A stretch of DNA of 47,629 nt, taken from NCBI GenBank assembly GCA_025965315.1, contig JAOPXD010000012.1, forward strand, positions 1 to 47,629. The letters are read 5' to 3'. The position numbers and the translations under genes are program-made. A model generated the notes under the pieces. The model had not been told where the DNA came from and made no database searches. It saw only the letters and a list, made by a program, of their open reading frames with translations. The DNA comes from Marmoricola sp. (GTDB lineage Bacteria; Actinomycetota; Actinomycetes; Propionibacteriales; Nocardioidaceae). This document shows, piece after piece, positions 37,454 through 42,949 of this stretch (positions within the stretch are counted from its first letter, which is position 1; each line of letters starts with the position of its first letter).

Positions 37454-39403
37454 TCAGTCGAAGGCAGGCCCTGCCACCTCGGGTTGCGTTCCGTTCGCCA
37501 CCAGCACGAACCGGTGCCTTCCCGGGCGACCCAGCGGCGGGGCGTACCAGCGCGCGACGTACAGGTGCCGGGCAGCTTCGACCCCGGCGTACTGGATGCC
37601 GATCCGCCAGCCCTGGTCGTCCACCGCCCGGCCGTCGTACGAGGCAGGGGCCCAGCCGGTCGGGGTCTCGTGCTCGACCCGTACCAGCGGCTGGTGCCAG
37701 AGCAGGTCGCCGGGAGCGACATCGGTCCACGACATGCTCCAGAACGCGTCCTCGGTCACCGTCGCCTCGACGAACGAGACGTGCCCGGGTCGTCGGTCGG
37801 TGATCTCCCCGGTCGGCTCGGCCAGGTAGCGCCGGACGCCGAAGTCGAAGGACCGCGCCACCGGGGTCGCCCGGATGCCCTGGGCAAGATCCTCGGCGAC
37901 GGCGTGCGCCAGGCCGGCCACCCAGGCCTGCTGCCCGGGGCCGAAGAGGGTCGACGCGCCCTCGTAGTACTGGGCGGAGTACTCCTCCGGCGTGGTCAGG
38001 TAGTCGCAGTGGTCGTCGACGAGCGACGACACGAACGCCGTCCGCACGCCTAGCGCGGAGCCCTCGACCGCAGCACCGATCCGACGCCCGGCCTCGACGG
38101 TGGTCTCGAACGGGAGCCCGATCACGGCCGCGTCGCCGAGGCGGAGCAGGTGCAGGGGCAGCACCTCGGGGAAGTCCTCGTCGCGGCCGACCAGGCGCCG
38201 GTGACCGAGGCGGGTGCCGGCGATCCGCTTCTCCCCGTGCGGGCCCCGGGGGCGTCGCGGGTGCCCGGCCTTGAACGGCGGGATCAGGTGCAGGACCGGC
38301 GTGGTGTTCTCAGCGGCACCGGCCGTCTTGGCCCACCCGATCCGCGGGGCCGCCAGCGAGACGCCGTCCACCTCGGCAGCGTCGGCGATCACGACCTCGT
38401 GCAGGGTCGCATCCACCACGAACCGGTCCGAGAGGCTCCCCGCCAGGGACTGGTGCAGCTCAGCAGCAGCCGCTCCGATCCCCCGGCCGACACGTTCGGC
38501 CTCGGGGAAGACCAACATCCCGGGCCGGACTGCCGGGGTCATGTCACCGTGCGACGCGACGACCGCACCGCACACGGCCGGAACCCCCGTCCTTGCTCGG
38601 ATCCGGTCGGACAGCTCGCCGTTCAGGTAGGCCCACACGTCGGCGTTGTACGACGAGTCGTGGTGGCTGATCCCGGTGCCGTGGATCGAGAACCAGCTGA
38701 AGGCCGCCAACGGGCCGGCAGCGTCATCGACCCGGAGCAGGTGCAACCGCGGATCGACGGCCGCGTACTTGCGCTGGTCCTCGGTACGCCGGTCCTCGAG
38801 GTCGTCGTTCCGGACGAACGCGCCGAGCGAGCGGTTCCGGGTCAGGCCCCAGACCTCGGTCATCCCCAGCGCCGCCCGCGCCGGACCTCGGTTCCCGATC
38901 GCCTGGTTCGCGGCGACGGCGAGCTGGTCGACGAGGAACCGGGTGTACCCGGGGTCGAACCCCGGTCGGTTGGACGCCCAGTCGTTGTAGAAGGCACTAC
39001 CGCTGTACTGACCGGGACCGGCGTGGGTGTGCGTGGCTGCCAGGAACACCCCGGAGACCGGGACGTCGGTGTGCCGCAGGGCCTTGGCGAGCTCGCGCTG
39101 CACGAGCGCGGAGCCGGCGAGCAGGTCGAGAGCCACCAGGACCACCGAGGACCGCCCGGCGCGCAGGTGCACGACTCGCGCCTTGAGCCGGGTCCGGAAC
39201 CCGATCCCGTCCTGGGCGTTCTTCGAGTGTCCCGCCTTGGGCATCCCCGGCGGTGGGGTGATGTCGACCTCGGCCGCACCGGCGAGCAACCGCTCGACGT
39301 CAGGCAGCCCGGGCTCGGGGATCTCCTCGAACGACAGCCGGAAGCGCCGGTCGGTGACTTCGGCGTCGGGCCACGCGTCGTCCTGGGAGGGGTGGCGACT
39401 CAT
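37454..39403 (-). CDS. Neutral ceramidase-like hydrolase
   Basis: A 649-residue member of the neutral/alkaline ceramidase family (PF04734-like). The N-terminus LAGAAEVDITPPPGMPKAG, the zinc-site region ATHTHAGPGQYSG (about 123-135) and FSIHGTGISHH (His241) are all conserved. The C-terminal part (about 520-649) is a beta-sandwich-like domain. Two departures from classical ceramidases matter. The nucleophile motif GDVSPN reads GDMTPA here, with Thr289 in place of Ser. No signal peptide is visible, so the enzyme would be cytosolic. The substrate may be an N-acyl amide other than ceramide. ATG 39403 follows TAGGCT by six bases. Confidence 0.85.
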   Translation of the reverse strand: MSRHPSQDDAWPDAEVTDRRFRLSFEEIPEPGLPDVERLLAGAAEVDITPPPGMPKAGHSKNAQDGIGFRTRLKARVVHLRAGRSSVVLVALDLLAGSALVQRELAKALRHTDVPVSGVFLAATHTHAGPGQYSGSAFYNDWASNRPGFDPGYTRFLVDQLAVAANQAIGNRGPARAALGMTEVWGLTRNRSLGAFVRNDDLEDRRTEDQRKYAAVDPRLHLLRVDDAAGPLAAFSWFSIHGTGISHHDSSYNADVWAYLNGELSDRIRARTGVPAVCGAVVASHGDMTPAVRPGMLVFPEAERVGRGIGAAAAELHQSLAGSLSDRFVVDATLHEVVIADAAEVDGVSLAAPRIGWAKTAGAAENTTPVLHLIPPFKAGHPRRPRGPHGEKRIAGTRLGHRRLVGRDEDFPEVLPLHLLRLGDAAVIGLPFETTVEAGRRIGAAVEGSALGVRTAFVSSLVDDHCDYLTTPEEYSAQYYEGASTLFGPGQQAWVAGLAHAVAEDLAQGIRATPVARSFDFGVRRYLAEPTGEITDRRPGHVSFVEATVTEDAFWSMSWTDVAPGDLLWHQPLVRVEHETPTGWAPASYDGRAVDDQGWRIGIQYAGVEAARHLYVARWYAPPLGRPGRHRFVLVANGTQPEVAGPAFD

Positions 39404-39904: not shown

Positions 39905-40393
39905 TCAGGCCAGTACGGCCTGGATCGCCGCGACCACCTGCGGGTCCTCGGGCTCGACGGTCGGGCTGAACCGCGCCACCACCGAACCGTCCGCGTCGAC
40001 GAGGAACTTCTCGAAGTTCCAGGCGACGTCGCCGACCTCGCCCTTCTCGTTCGGCGTCCCGACCAACCCGGCGTAGATCGGGTGCTGGTCGTCGCCGTTG
40101 ACGTCGATCTTCTCCGACATCGGGAAGGTGACGCCGTACGTCGCGGAGCAGAACTCGGCGATCTCCTCGCTGGTGCCGGGCTCCTGGCCCATGAACTGGT
40201 TGCACGGGAACCCGACGACGGTGAAGCCGTTCTCGGCGTACGCCTCCTGCAACCGTTCGAGGCCGCCGTACTGGGGCGTCAGGCCGCACTTGCTGGCGAC
40301 GTTGACCAGCAGGGCCGGGTTGCCGCCGGTCAGCTCGCCGAGGGTGGACGGGGTGCCGTCGAGACGGGCGACAGCTGATTCGAGGATGCTCAT
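39905..40393 (-). CDS. Glutathione-peroxidase-family peroxidase
   Basis: A 162-residue thiol peroxidase of the GPx fold. The peroxidatic Cys is in NVASKCGLTPQY (about Cys36), the Gln/Trp of the tetrad are in GFPCNQF and WNFEKFLV, and the Cys in GFPCNQF is the probable resolving residue. All active-site positions use Cys, not selenocysteine. In an organism that makes mycothiol the reductant is more likely thioredoxin than glutathione. ATG 40393 follows TAGACT by six bases. Confidence 0.92.
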   Translation of the reverse strand: MSILESAVARLDGTPSTLGELTGGNPALLVNVASKCGLTPQYGGLERLQEAYAENGFTVVGFPCNQFMGQEPGTSEEIAEFCSATYGVTFPMSEKIDVNGDDQHPIYAGLVGTPNEKGEVGDVAWNFEKFLVDADGSVVARFSPTVEPEDPQVVAAIQAVLA

Positions 40394-40427: not shown

Positions 40428-40883
40428 TCAGCGAGCGGCCGCCGGGCTCCGTCGAGCCTTCAGCACGGCAACGACGACCAGGATCAGTGCGGCCACCGCT
40501 GCGATCGCCTGGGCGATACAAGTGTGCGTCTTGTCGGGGTACCAGGACGGTTCGTACATCGACGGCAACGGTCCGATCGCGCCGATGTCGTAGTACCGGT
40601 AGGCGAGCAGCGGGACCAGTCCACCGCCGGAGACCGCCAGCGCGAACAGCGCCACGACCGCCCGGCGCGAGACCAGGATCGCGAGCGCGGCGATGATCGC
40701 CAGCACCGCCTCGACCCGGAACAACCCACCCTGGGTGATCGTGCCGCCGCTGATGCCGTCGTACGCCGGCGCGAGCCGCAGGTGGATCCGGGCATCGACG
40801 GCCAGACCGGCCGCGGTGATCAGCTGGAGCAGGGTCGAGACCGAGAACAGGCTCGAGGTGCGCAGGCGTTCCATCGTGCTCAT
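40428..40883 (-). CDS. Four-helix membrane protein of unknown function
   Basis: A 151-residue membrane protein with hydrophobic segments at about 12-28, 53-71, 74-95 and 125-145. The loop before the last helix (PLPSMYEPSWYPDKTHT) is Tyr/Trp-rich. The arrangement resembles small DoxX-like or DUF-type membrane proteins, but I cannot assign a family. I start at the ATG 40883 with GGAG six bases upstream; the frame is open 36 codons further with no membrane-like content. It sits between the peroxidase and a terminator. Confidence 0.65.
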   Translation of the reverse strand: MSTMERLRTSSLFSVSTLLQLITAAGLAVDARIHLRLAPAYDGISGGTITQGGLFRVEAVLAIIAALAILVSRRAVVALFALAVSGGGLVPLLAYRYYDIGAIGPLPSMYEPSWYPDKTHTCIAQAIAAVAALILVVVAVLKARRSPAAAR

Positions 40884-40978
40884 CACGGACTCCAGGTGAG
40901 GATCGTCGTTCGGGAAAGTACTCACAGCAGGTTCGGCACGACATCCCTCACGGATTGGGGCGACAGCCGTCAGACGCA

Positions 40979-41008
40979 CAGAAGGCCCCACCGAAGCGGG
41001 GCCTTCTG
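40979..41008 (-). terminator. Terminator of the His-repeat lipoprotein gene
   Basis: A perfect 11-base stem CAGAAGGCCCC/GGGGCCTTCTG with an eight-base loop, 22 bases past the stop at 41030. The U-tract is weak. The region 40884-41029 holds this hairpin and the upstream end of the membrane protein gene only. Confidence 0.7.
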
Positions 41009-41029: not shown

Positions 41030-42289
41030 TCAGCTGAGCTTCTTGTTGGCCGCGATGCCGCCGGACAGGACGCCCGCGGTACCCGGCATGTGCGCTGCCG
41101 CGATCGAGAGGTCCTTGAACACGTTTCCGTCACCGGCGACCAGGGAGTCGATCGTGGTGAGCAGGGTGGCGACGTGCGGGACGAGCTCCTGGGCGACCGC
41201 GTCAGCCGGCAGCTCGGGAACGACCGAGTTGATCAGCTGGCCGAACGAGGTCCGGTAACCGTTGAGGTCGGACTTCGCCTTGGCTGCCATCGCCTTGTTC
41301 TTGGTGGCCACACCGAGGGTGTAGTTCACGAAGAACCCGATGTGCTGGCGCCACGACTGCAGGAACGGCGTCTCGGCTGCCGGGTACGCCGCGCCGATCG
41401 CCTTGGACAGGTCGACCGAGTTCTGGTCGAGAGCGCCCACGGCTGCCACGACGGACGGGTCCTTGAGGTTCCCGCCCTTGCTGACGGCCTGGGCCAGCGC
41501 GATGCCGGCCAGGTCGACGTGCGAGTCGAGCAGGTAGGTCAGGCCCGAGCGCAGGTTCGACGCGTCGGAGTCGACGTTGCCGGCCAGGCCCTTGTTCTTC
41601 GCGATGCCGCCGGCCAGGATGTCGGCCGTGCCGGGCATGTGCGCCGCGGCCTTCTCCAGCAGAGCGAACGCGTCGCCCTTGCCGGACACGAGCGAGTCGA
41701 TCGTGGCGAGCAGGGTGGCCACGTGCGGCACGAGCTCCTGGGCAACCGCAGCAGCCGGCAGCTCGGGAACGACCGAGTGGATCAGCTGACCGAACGAGGT
41801 CCGGTAACCGTCGAGGTCGGCCTTGGCCTTGTTCGCCATCGCCGTGTTCTTCGTGGCCACACCGAGGGTGTAGTTGACGAAGAAGCCGATGTGCTGGCGC
41901 CACGACTGCAGGAACGGCTTCTCGGCGGCCGGGTAGACCGAGCCGATCGCCTTGGACAGGGCCACCGAGTTGGCGTCGAGCGCGTTCACAGCAGCGACGA
42001 CGACCGGCTTCTTCAGGTCGCCACCGTTGTCGACAGCCATCTTCAGGGCGATACCGGCCAGGTAGACGTGCTGGGTCAGCAGGTCCGTCAGCGTGGCGCG
42101 CAGGCCGGCTGCAGCGGTGGTCGTGGCAGCCGCGCCGGTCACGGCGGTGGTGCTGGAGCCGCCGGTCGGGGTCGAACCGCCGCTGCTGCTGTTGTCGTTG
42201 CTGCTCGAACCGCACGCAGCCAGCGAGACGGTCATCAAGGTGGCCACGGAGGCGGCCGCCAAACGGGTCTTGCCAGAGTTGAGCATCAT
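41030..42289 (-). CDS. Lipoprotein with two tandem 183-residue four-histidine helical repeats
   Basis: A 419-residue exported lipoprotein: basic N-terminus, hydrophobic core and lipobox SLAAC with Cys26, then a Ser/Gly/Thr linker to about residue 60. Two copies of an all-helical unit follow (about 62-244 and 245-419). They align without a single gap at a period of exactly 183 residues. Each has the same four histidines: His74, 133, 189 and 217 in the first, His257, 316, 372 and 400 in the second. Shared cores are SWRQHIGFFVNYTLGVATKN and QELVPHVATLL. Four His on four helices suggests a metal or heme site. ATG 42289 has AAGGAG. It lies 71 bases after a cupredoxin gene. The function is unknown. 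Confidence 0.85.
   Translation of the reverse strand: MMLNSGKTRLAAASVATLMTVSLAACGSSSNDNSSSGGSTPTGGSSTTAVTGAAATTTAAAGLRATLTDLLTQHVYLAGIALKMAVDNGGDLKKPVVVAAVNALDANSVALSKAIGSVYPAAEKPFLQSWRQHIGFFVNYTLGVATKNTAMANKAKADLDGYRTSFGQLIHSVVPELPAAAVAQELVPHVATLLATIDSLVSGKGDAFALLEKAAAHMPGTADILAGGIAKNKGLAGNVDSDASNLRSGLTYLLDSHVDLAGIALAQAVSKGGNLKDPSVVAAVGALDQNSVDLSKAIGAAYPAAETPFLQSWRQHIGFFVNYTLGVATKNKAMAAKAKSDLNGYRTSFGQLINSVVPELPADAVAQELVPHVATLLTTIDSLVAGDGNVFKDLSIAAAHMPGTAGVLSGGIAANKKLS
41061..42065 (-). repeat. Internal tandem duplication, 549-base period
   Basis: The lipoprotein gene contains two in-frame copies of one unit. For example GTGCTGGCGCCACGACTGCA starts at both 41342 and 41891 on the plus strand, 549 bases (183 codons) apart. 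High nucleotide identity suggests a fairly recent duplication or ongoing gene conversion. Confidence 0.8.
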
Positions 42290-42360
42290 GGGTGTTACTC
42301 CTTGCGGATTGTTTGGATGGTCGAACGTGCGGTGCTACGTGTGGTGCCGAACCGGGGGGA

Positions 42361-42804
42361 TCACGGGGTGACGACGATGACGCCGTTCATGCCGTGGTGG
42401 ATCGAGCAGTAGTAGGTGTACTTGCCGGGCTTGGTGAACGTGTAGGACACGTCGTGGCCCTTGGAGAGCGGCATGTTGACCTTGCCGTCGGGGTGCTGCG
42501 CGGTACGCAGGCCGTCGGAACCAACCGTGAACGTCCCGGTGGTGACCGTGTGGCCGATGCCGTCGCCAGCGACCCAGGTCACCTTGGTGCCGGCCTTGAC
42601 CGTCAGGGTGCCGGGCATGAAGGAGAGCAGCTTGGTGGTGACCGTCGTGGCGCTGTCGTGCTTGGCGGTGCTCGCGGAGCCCGACTTGCCTGACGATGAT
42701 CCGCAGGCGGAGACGAGCAGGAGCGCTACCAGCACGGCAGCCACCGCGGCTGCTCCACGTCGTACGCCGGACTTGCGGCTGAGTGCGTCGGTTGATGTGT
42801 TCAC
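42361..42804 (-). CDS. Cupredoxin (plastocyanin/azurin-like) lipoprotein
   Basis: A 147-residue blue-copper-type protein. The signal is basic plus hydrophobic (about 16-30) with lipobox VSAC, Cys34. The beta-sandwich domain (about 52-147) has type-1 copper ligands His85 (GIGHTV), Cys133, His136 and Met139 (CSIHHGM). The spacing C-x2-H-x2-M matches amicyanin/plastocyanin-like electron carriers. The GTG at 42804 is the only plausible start before the signal. It is upstream of the His-repeat lipoprotein with which it probably shares a message. A 12-base palindrome lies about 34 bases upstream. Confidence 0.88.
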   Translation of the reverse strand: MNTSTDALSRKSGVRRGAAAVAAVLVALLLVSACGSSSGKSGSASTAKHDSATTVTTKLLSFMPGTLTVKAGTKVTWVAGDGIGHTVTTGTFTVGSDGLRTAQHPDGKVNMPLSKGHDVSYTFTKPGKYTYYCSIHHGMNGVIVVTP

Positions 42805-42849: not shown

Positions 42850-42902
42850 GAAACTTTCCAACCGGGCGCGAATCGCGCTCCGGAGGGCTCCAGGCACGAA
42901 AA

Positions 42903-42927
42903 AAGACCAGGTCAGCGACCTGGTCTT
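42903..42927 (-). terminator. Terminator of the DUF4333 gene
   Basis: AAGACCAGGTC pairs perfectly with GACCTGGTCTT around a three-base loop and is followed on the minus strand by a run of T. It is 23 bases past the stop at 42950. Confidence 0.85.
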
Positions 42928-42949
42928 CCTTCGTTGCCTGCTGGAGGGG

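Follow-up and report, generated by a model that had tools for sequence, protein, structure and literature searches.

The 47,629-nucleotide stretch of Marmoricola DNA analysed here (the window) carries a gene for a type-1 cupredoxin lipoprotein followed by a gene for a lipoprotein built of two helical repeats, and we hold with moderate confidence that the pair is a two-gene extracytoplasmic metal/redox module with a three-histidine site in each repeat. Each repeat would be a self-contained helical bundle with one transition-metal ion, most likely copper or iron, near its middle. The candidate ligands are His74, His133 and His189 in the first repeat and His257, His316 and His372 in the second, helped by Asn107 or Asn290 and by the nearby Tyr162. 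The repeat protein would sit lipid-anchored outside the membrane beside the lipid-anchored cupredoxin, which may exchange electrons (or copper) with the bundle sites.

The window cupredoxin matched Pfam Copper-bind (PF00127) with E=2.8e-14 and 53.7 bits against a cut-off of 21.2, and both the four copper ligands and the short spacing to the repeat gene that had been read from the sequence beforehand were confirmed (Table 1). It is the sole PF00127 match in its own genome (217 contigs, 90.5% complete). Because hairpins flank the pair on both sides, the two genes are likely one two-gene transcript; a terminator scan called neither hairpin as a site, and the hairpins are only suggestive. The small membrane-type protein encoded just beyond the repeat gene had no Pfam match over the cut-off, and its homologues are encoded no more than five genes from the module in six further loci of actinobacteria (seven including the window), a tentative link. 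A glutathione peroxidase gene lies two genes downstream of the repeat gene (39905-40393; PF00255, 1.2e-35), and the window also encodes a neutral/alkaline ceramidase-like protein (37454-39403; PF04734, 4.5e-47).

Table 1. Features of the cupredoxin and repeat-protein locus, in window coordinates
Feature	Position	Strand	Details
Small membrane-type protein	40428..40991	-	151-187 aa depending on start
Hairpin, perfect 11 bp	40979..41008	.	Inverted repeat just 3' of repeat gene; possible transcript end
Two-repeat histidine lipoprotein gene	41030..42289	-	419 aa; lipobox Cys26
Repeat 2	41051..41554	-	His257, His316, His372, His400; Asn290; profile match positions 1-167
Repeat 1	41600..42103	-	His74, His133, His189, His217; Asn107; profile match positions 1-167
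Intergenic gap, cupredoxin to repeat gene	42290..42360	-	71 bp
Type-1 cupredoxin lipoprotein gene	42361..42804	-	147 aa; GTG start; lipobox Cys34
Type-1 copper ligands of the cupredoxin			His85, Cys133, His136, Met139; all four present
Hairpin, 18 nt, 89% complementary	42896..42934	.	Between DUF4333 and cupredoxin genes; possible transcript boundary

Residues 63-236 and 246-419 of the repeat protein aligned without a gap and were identical at 134 of 174 positions, and its four histidines recurred at an offset of exactly 183 residues, as the sequence-only reading had described; His171 is an extra histidine without a counterpart in the second repeat. Since both the duplication and the histidines recur in relatives from several phyla, neither is a chance feature. 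AlphaFold2 predicted two helical repeats in a confident all-helical model (pLDDT 96.1, pTM 0.93), and repeat 1 was predicted to fold alone with similar confidence (pLDDT 95.2, pTM 0.89), each repeat having five long helices and a kinked last pair. Of the four histidines proposed to lie on four helices, His74, His133 and His189 sit mid-helix in the model and His217 lies at the kink, making the fourth histidine less like the other three.

A scan of named genomes returned 181 relatives of the repeat protein, the best 80 of which are loci L031 to L110; the search pattern contained His71. The nearest, at 84-88 percent, came from two Marmoricola MAGs and Nocardioides marmorisolisilvae. The family was present in Actinomycetota, Chloroflexota, Bacillota, Alphaproteobacteria, Saccharibacteria MAGs and one haloarchaeon, with carriers that included Saccharothrix, Amycolatopsis, Mycetocola, Cellulomonas, Meinhardsimonia, Halobacillus, Salipaludibacillus and Natronocalculus as well as Chloroflexota and Saccharibacteria MAGs. 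In the Actinomycetota sample, relatives were found at E<=1e-3 in 34 of 296 genomes, including the window's own genome and four (G012, G096, G100, G214) that match over the signal-peptide region only. With a profile at E<=1e-6, and with the centre genomes counted, relatives were found in 16 of the 299 genomes from the phylum of Halobacillus (six with the secreted type, ten with the distant one only), in 19 of the 201 from that of a Chloroflexota MAG (13 secreted, six distant), in two of the 299 from that of Meinhardsimonia and in two of the 196 from that of Natronocalculus (one secreted and one distant in each of the last two).

By profile comparison, the repeat family holds as unrecognised in the libraries searched, Pfam and NCBIfam, in agreement with the earlier claim that it belongs to no established family. 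For the repeat protein and its relatives' repeats there was no match over the cut-off among the Pfam matches shown, no NCBIfam model fitted over the repeats, and PDB sequences included no credible relative. The Pfam family DinB_2 (PF12867) matched 3 of 54 repeats with E values not above 0.1, the best being 0.0071. Titles and abstract beginnings of the open-licence papers listed in literature searches contained no description of the repeat family, which is no proof that it is undescribed.

The expectation that these are surface proteins was supported by secretion or lipobox signals in relatives. Among the best 80 of 181, a simple pattern placed a lipobox-like site ahead of the first repeat in 63 loci. 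Of the remaining 17, two begin inside the gene; a loose test was satisfied by a hydrophobic stretch in the other 15, one of which (L100) owed this to a Ser-rich stretch alone.

In repeat numbering, His12, His71, His127 and His155 correspond to His74, His133, His189 and His217, Asn45 to Asn107, and Tyr100 to Tyr162. Across 134 repeats, taken from the window and from 77 of the best 80 of 181 loci (the repeats of L057, L071 and L086 being too short), His12 was kept in 133 and Asn45, Trp68, His71 and His127 in all 134, the His71 count being biased because this residue lies inside the search pattern. His155 was kept in 104 of the 117 repeats that reach that position and replaced in 13. In an Actinomycetota sample of 57 repeats, drawn by whole-protein similarity without the His71 pattern and including the window's own two, Trp68 was kept in 57, His12 in 56, Asn45 in 55, His127 in 50, His71 in 49 and His155 in 43.

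Distant relatives narrowed this set further. In 19 distant single-domain proteins (L128-L137, L148, L162, L163, L165-L167, L169, L181, L182), Asn45, His71 and His127 were kept in every case and His12 in 14 (four unaligned, one Gln), while Trp68 and Tyr100 were not kept and His155 was present in three. Their retention in these relatives makes the ancestral core look like three histidines and an asparagine, so the conservation expected of the four histidines in homologues was found for three of them plus the asparagine, the fourth being less conserved. Seven of the distant relatives were scanned and had no Pfam or NCBIfam match over the cut-off in the shared region; a signal-like stretch was evident in three (L128, L181, L182) and not in most others. 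The core was also kept in relatives without a cupredoxin match within 1.5 kb. Eight plasmid relatives of one distant member are named glycosyltransferase (two) or hypothetical protein (four) or are unnamed (two), and one plasmid relative is encoded on pNOCA01, a conjugative plasmid from Nocardioides sp. JS614.

Across 246 unique repeats, coevolution strongly linked positions on different helices, and His71 and His127 covaried at rank 23 of 8606 inter-helix pairs. In a coarse model, a rigid-helix reconstruction from coevolution with no restraint between key residues, His12, Asn45, His71, Tyr100 and His127 had a mean C-beta distance of 10.2-10.8 Å compared to about 14 Å for same-level control positions. 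The fraction of controls as tight as this five-residue core was 0.004-0.013 in the 12 best of 97 models, which are near-duplicates and not 12 independent tests. The three histidines alone were 9.8-12.4 Å apart (fraction of controls as tight, 0.009-0.11), a spacing that some models did not clearly separate from the controls, and an earlier, smaller run gave weaker results. Of the four histidines proposed to converge, three came together with the Asn and Tyr, but His155 was modelled 13-24 Å from the site. The coarse model and coevolution support, but do not show, a three-histidine centre, with the fourth histidine (His217) probably outside it.

The number and arrangement of repeats vary across the family. 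Many relatives have two repeats and some have one, and in two Chloroflexota (L065, L070) four repeats are fused in a single frame to one cupredoxin. In 16 two-repeat proteins the last helix is missing from the second repeat, and in 15 of these, L072 being the exception, a copy of that helix with a histidine was found by eye before the first repeat, which we read as a circular permutation. Within-protein repeat identity, measured in 34 two-repeat proteins, ranged between 0.54 and 0.95, a spread that suggests gene conversion or duplication on several occasions. Four members from Bacillota carry a terminal PxTGMGG-hydrophobic-basic tail, and a sortase gene adjoins the repeat gene in L105 and L112 and, by resemblance, in L109; tail and neighbouring sortase together indicate that the tailed members are probably wall-anchored.

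Analysis of gene neighborhoods revealed frequent linkage to a cupredoxin. With a cupredoxin profile iterated on these same loci and genes called by script (the repeat gene of L079 was missed), 58 of the best 80 of 181 loci had a match no more than 1.5 kb away, as did 42 of the 53 with full flanks. The match was upstream on the same strand in 27, downstream on the same strand in 22, divergent in seven and fused in two. Outside this range, 0.84 Mb of sequence contained two more matches, of which one is a second cupredoxin gene of L075 barely past the limit. The type-1 ligand columns were kept in 60-62 of 63 aligned cupredoxins. On a quick tree, the arrangement among adjacent loci changed at least seven times and cupredoxin presence or absence at least ten times. 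Of the best 80 of 181 loci, 22 lacked a nearby cupredoxin, 11 of these without full flanks. A PF00127 search of eight carrier genomes found no match in five of the six Bacillota genomes or in Cellulomonas carbonis, one weak match in the remaining Bacillota genome, and eight matches in the haloarchaeon, on other contigs. The linkage supports the co-occurrence with cupredoxins that the sequence-only reading proposed to test, and carriers without a PF00127 protein indicate that the pairing is not obligatory.

A nearby cupredoxin was found in 23 of 30 loci with an intact three-histidine core and in one of 12 that had lost core histidines (Fisher p 7e-5, kinship not corrected). This hand tally covered secreted-type loci of Actinomycetota (L002-L030) and Chloroflexota, one per genome, and left out the window locus, six Chloroflexota loci of the distant type and another G630 gene, one without a locus. 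Loci with incomplete flanks (L006, L014, L158) were entered as having no cupredoxin, L020, which has intact and degenerate copies, was entered as degenerate with cupredoxin, and two of the cupredoxin matches were weak (L154, 4e-4; L155, 7e-5). No cupredoxin match lay near the degenerate secreted loci L019, L024, L025, L027, L029, L030, L159-L161, L164 and L168. Adding the six Bacillota genomes without cupredoxin gave p 0.002, and the association between histidine loss and cupredoxin loss may reflect a few clades.

The same linkage and histidine conservation could also be explained by copper buffering or hand-over, in which the bundles would hold copper outside the membrane and load or protect the cupredoxin with no electron transfer through the bundle; the four repeats on one cupredoxin in the two Chloroflexota would fit a store feeding a single acceptor. 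We consider this unlikely. The repeat protein differs from Cu(I) stores rich in Cys or Met: the lipobox cysteine is its sole Cys and just one Met, beside the fourth histidine, is fairly conserved (40 of 57 repeats of the Actinomycetota sample). Some carrier genomes, moreover, have no PF00127 protein.

Many relatives also lie near regulatory genes. Within 4 kb, sigma and anti-sigma genes were both present in 30 of the best 80 of 181 loci, a sigma gene only in six, an anti-sigma gene only in five and neither in 39. Neighbor clusters were built by BLAST linkage, with the sigma and anti-sigma members profile-tested in two loci: L061 had a SigK-like sigma factor scoring 220.7 bits, just under the SigK model cut-off of 226, with an anti-sigma factor over the cut-off, and L105 had an ECF sigma factor and an RskA_C protein. 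Because sigma/anti-sigma genes adjoin many relatives, a role of the module in envelope redox or metal stress would be plausible. The conserved mpt83-sigK-rskA cassette is likewise described as including a lipid-anchored protein (PMC7509140). The relatives with both regulators resemble this cassette in that a lipoprotein gene lies close to genes for a sigma and an anti-sigma factor. In contrast to it, the lipoprotein is a different one (MPT83 is a FAS1 protein), and no sigma/anti-sigma pair was recognised next to the window module.

A non-metal protein whose histidines are structural or bind an organic ligand, the cupredoxin linkage reflecting shared regulation only, would also be consistent with the carriers that have no PF00127 protein and with the presence of a sigma or anti-sigma gene close to the module in 41 of the best 80 of 181 loci. 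This seems improbable given the fusion to a cupredoxin in two loci and the retention of core histidines in most of the distant relatives.

Apart from sigma and anti-sigma genes, 99 neighbors were scanned, up to two per locus, and no Pfam family occurred in more than four of them; recurrent ones were Ferritin_2 (four), DUF6529 (three) and DUF4383 (three). This absence of a common partner, and of any enzyme family over the cut-off on the repeat, argues against a metalloenzyme with a catalytic three-His/Asn site to which the cupredoxin would donate, or from which it would accept, electrons, and with other partners in distant relatives. The joint conservation of Asn, Trp, Tyr and His would suit an enzyme, as would a core kept in relatives that have no nearby cupredoxin and mostly no evident signal peptide, and we regard this explanation as quite unlikely.

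Some neighbors are recorded here as observations. Ferritin-like proteins are encoded on both sides of the fused repeat-cupredoxin gene in L065 (8643-9254 and 12372-12983, by resemblance) and L070 (8383-9090 and 12191-12859, by Pfam), one of the latter pair having a Tat match under the cut-off. DUF6529 proteins, which could at a guess be membrane electron carriers, are encoded near the module in L034 (5657-6223) and L040 (10651-11169) by Pfam and in L037 (8717-9220) by clustering. Methionine sulfoxide reductase-type genes (SelR, three of the 99 neighbors) lie beside the repeat gene in L081, L091 and L093, from two Actinotalea genomes and one Cellulomonas genome.

Comparison with known systems suggested that the pair of repeat protein and cupredoxin is closest in design to the EfeO/imelysins (Peptidase_M75, PF09375). 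These are described as extracytoplasmic proteins, often lipoproteins, with a cupredoxin domain and two similar helical bundles and with a circularly permuted member, and EfeM is described as binding copper, iron and zinc (PMC3143127, PMC9174327). The module shares with them the cupredoxin, the duplication of predicted helical bundles, the lipoprotein form and the permuted members, and it may work like an EfeO. Unlike in EfeO, 56 of the 58 linked loci encode the cupredoxin in a gene of its own, and the site probably lies inside each repeat and not between two bundles. M75 was not among the Pfam matches shown for the repeat, and hhalign of the repeat against nine M75 sequences gave probabilities of 0.5 and 0.2 percent. 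The window repeat protein has no HxxE; in M75 the motif is GxHxxE, with one published member described as having a GxxxxE variant instead (PMC3143127). Lacking both profile similarity and HxxE, the repeat protein is not an EfeO/imelysin by sequence. Iron uptake of the EfeO kind, in which the cupredoxin and duplicated bundles would bind and oxidise ferrous iron, matches this architecture down to the circular permutation. It is very unlikely in view of these sequence differences, of the separate M75 matches carried by the same genome and of the window, where no permease gene was recognised beside the module.

Whereas the partner protein belongs to the type-1 cupredoxins by profile and ligands, the repeat protein does not. 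Firmicutes relatives had been suggested to carry the name copper amine oxidase on account of a fused domain. Two Planococcus plasmid proteins so annotated are indeed homologous two-repeat proteins, but three Bacillota relatives had no such domain: neither they nor the window protein contained a catalytic or N-terminal copper amine oxidase domain in Pfam or NCBIfam, and for lack of any detected amine-oxidase domain the name is unsupported. In Planococcus versutus, a plastocyanin-type gene lies divergently beside the so-called copper amine oxidase gene.

Beyond the two-gene module, it is possible, though we propose it tentatively, that the repeats belong to an ancient, widespread superfamily of helical three-His/Asn metal domains that the libraries do not list, with a secreted branch, in tandem and permuted copies and often under sigma/anti-sigma stress control, that was coupled to cupredoxins in many lineages as an extracellular redox relay or metal oxidase.

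In sum, a family with a conserved putative metal site and no Pfam or NCBIfam entry over the cut-off occurs in several bacterial phyla and a haloarchaeon, a copper protein has been kept beside the repeat gene through repeated rearrangement, and at least two public records carry the unsupported name copper amine oxidase. If the site is real, the module would represent an additional copper- or iron-based redox system outside the cytoplasm and would give the sigma/anti-sigma pairs beside many copies a candidate job.
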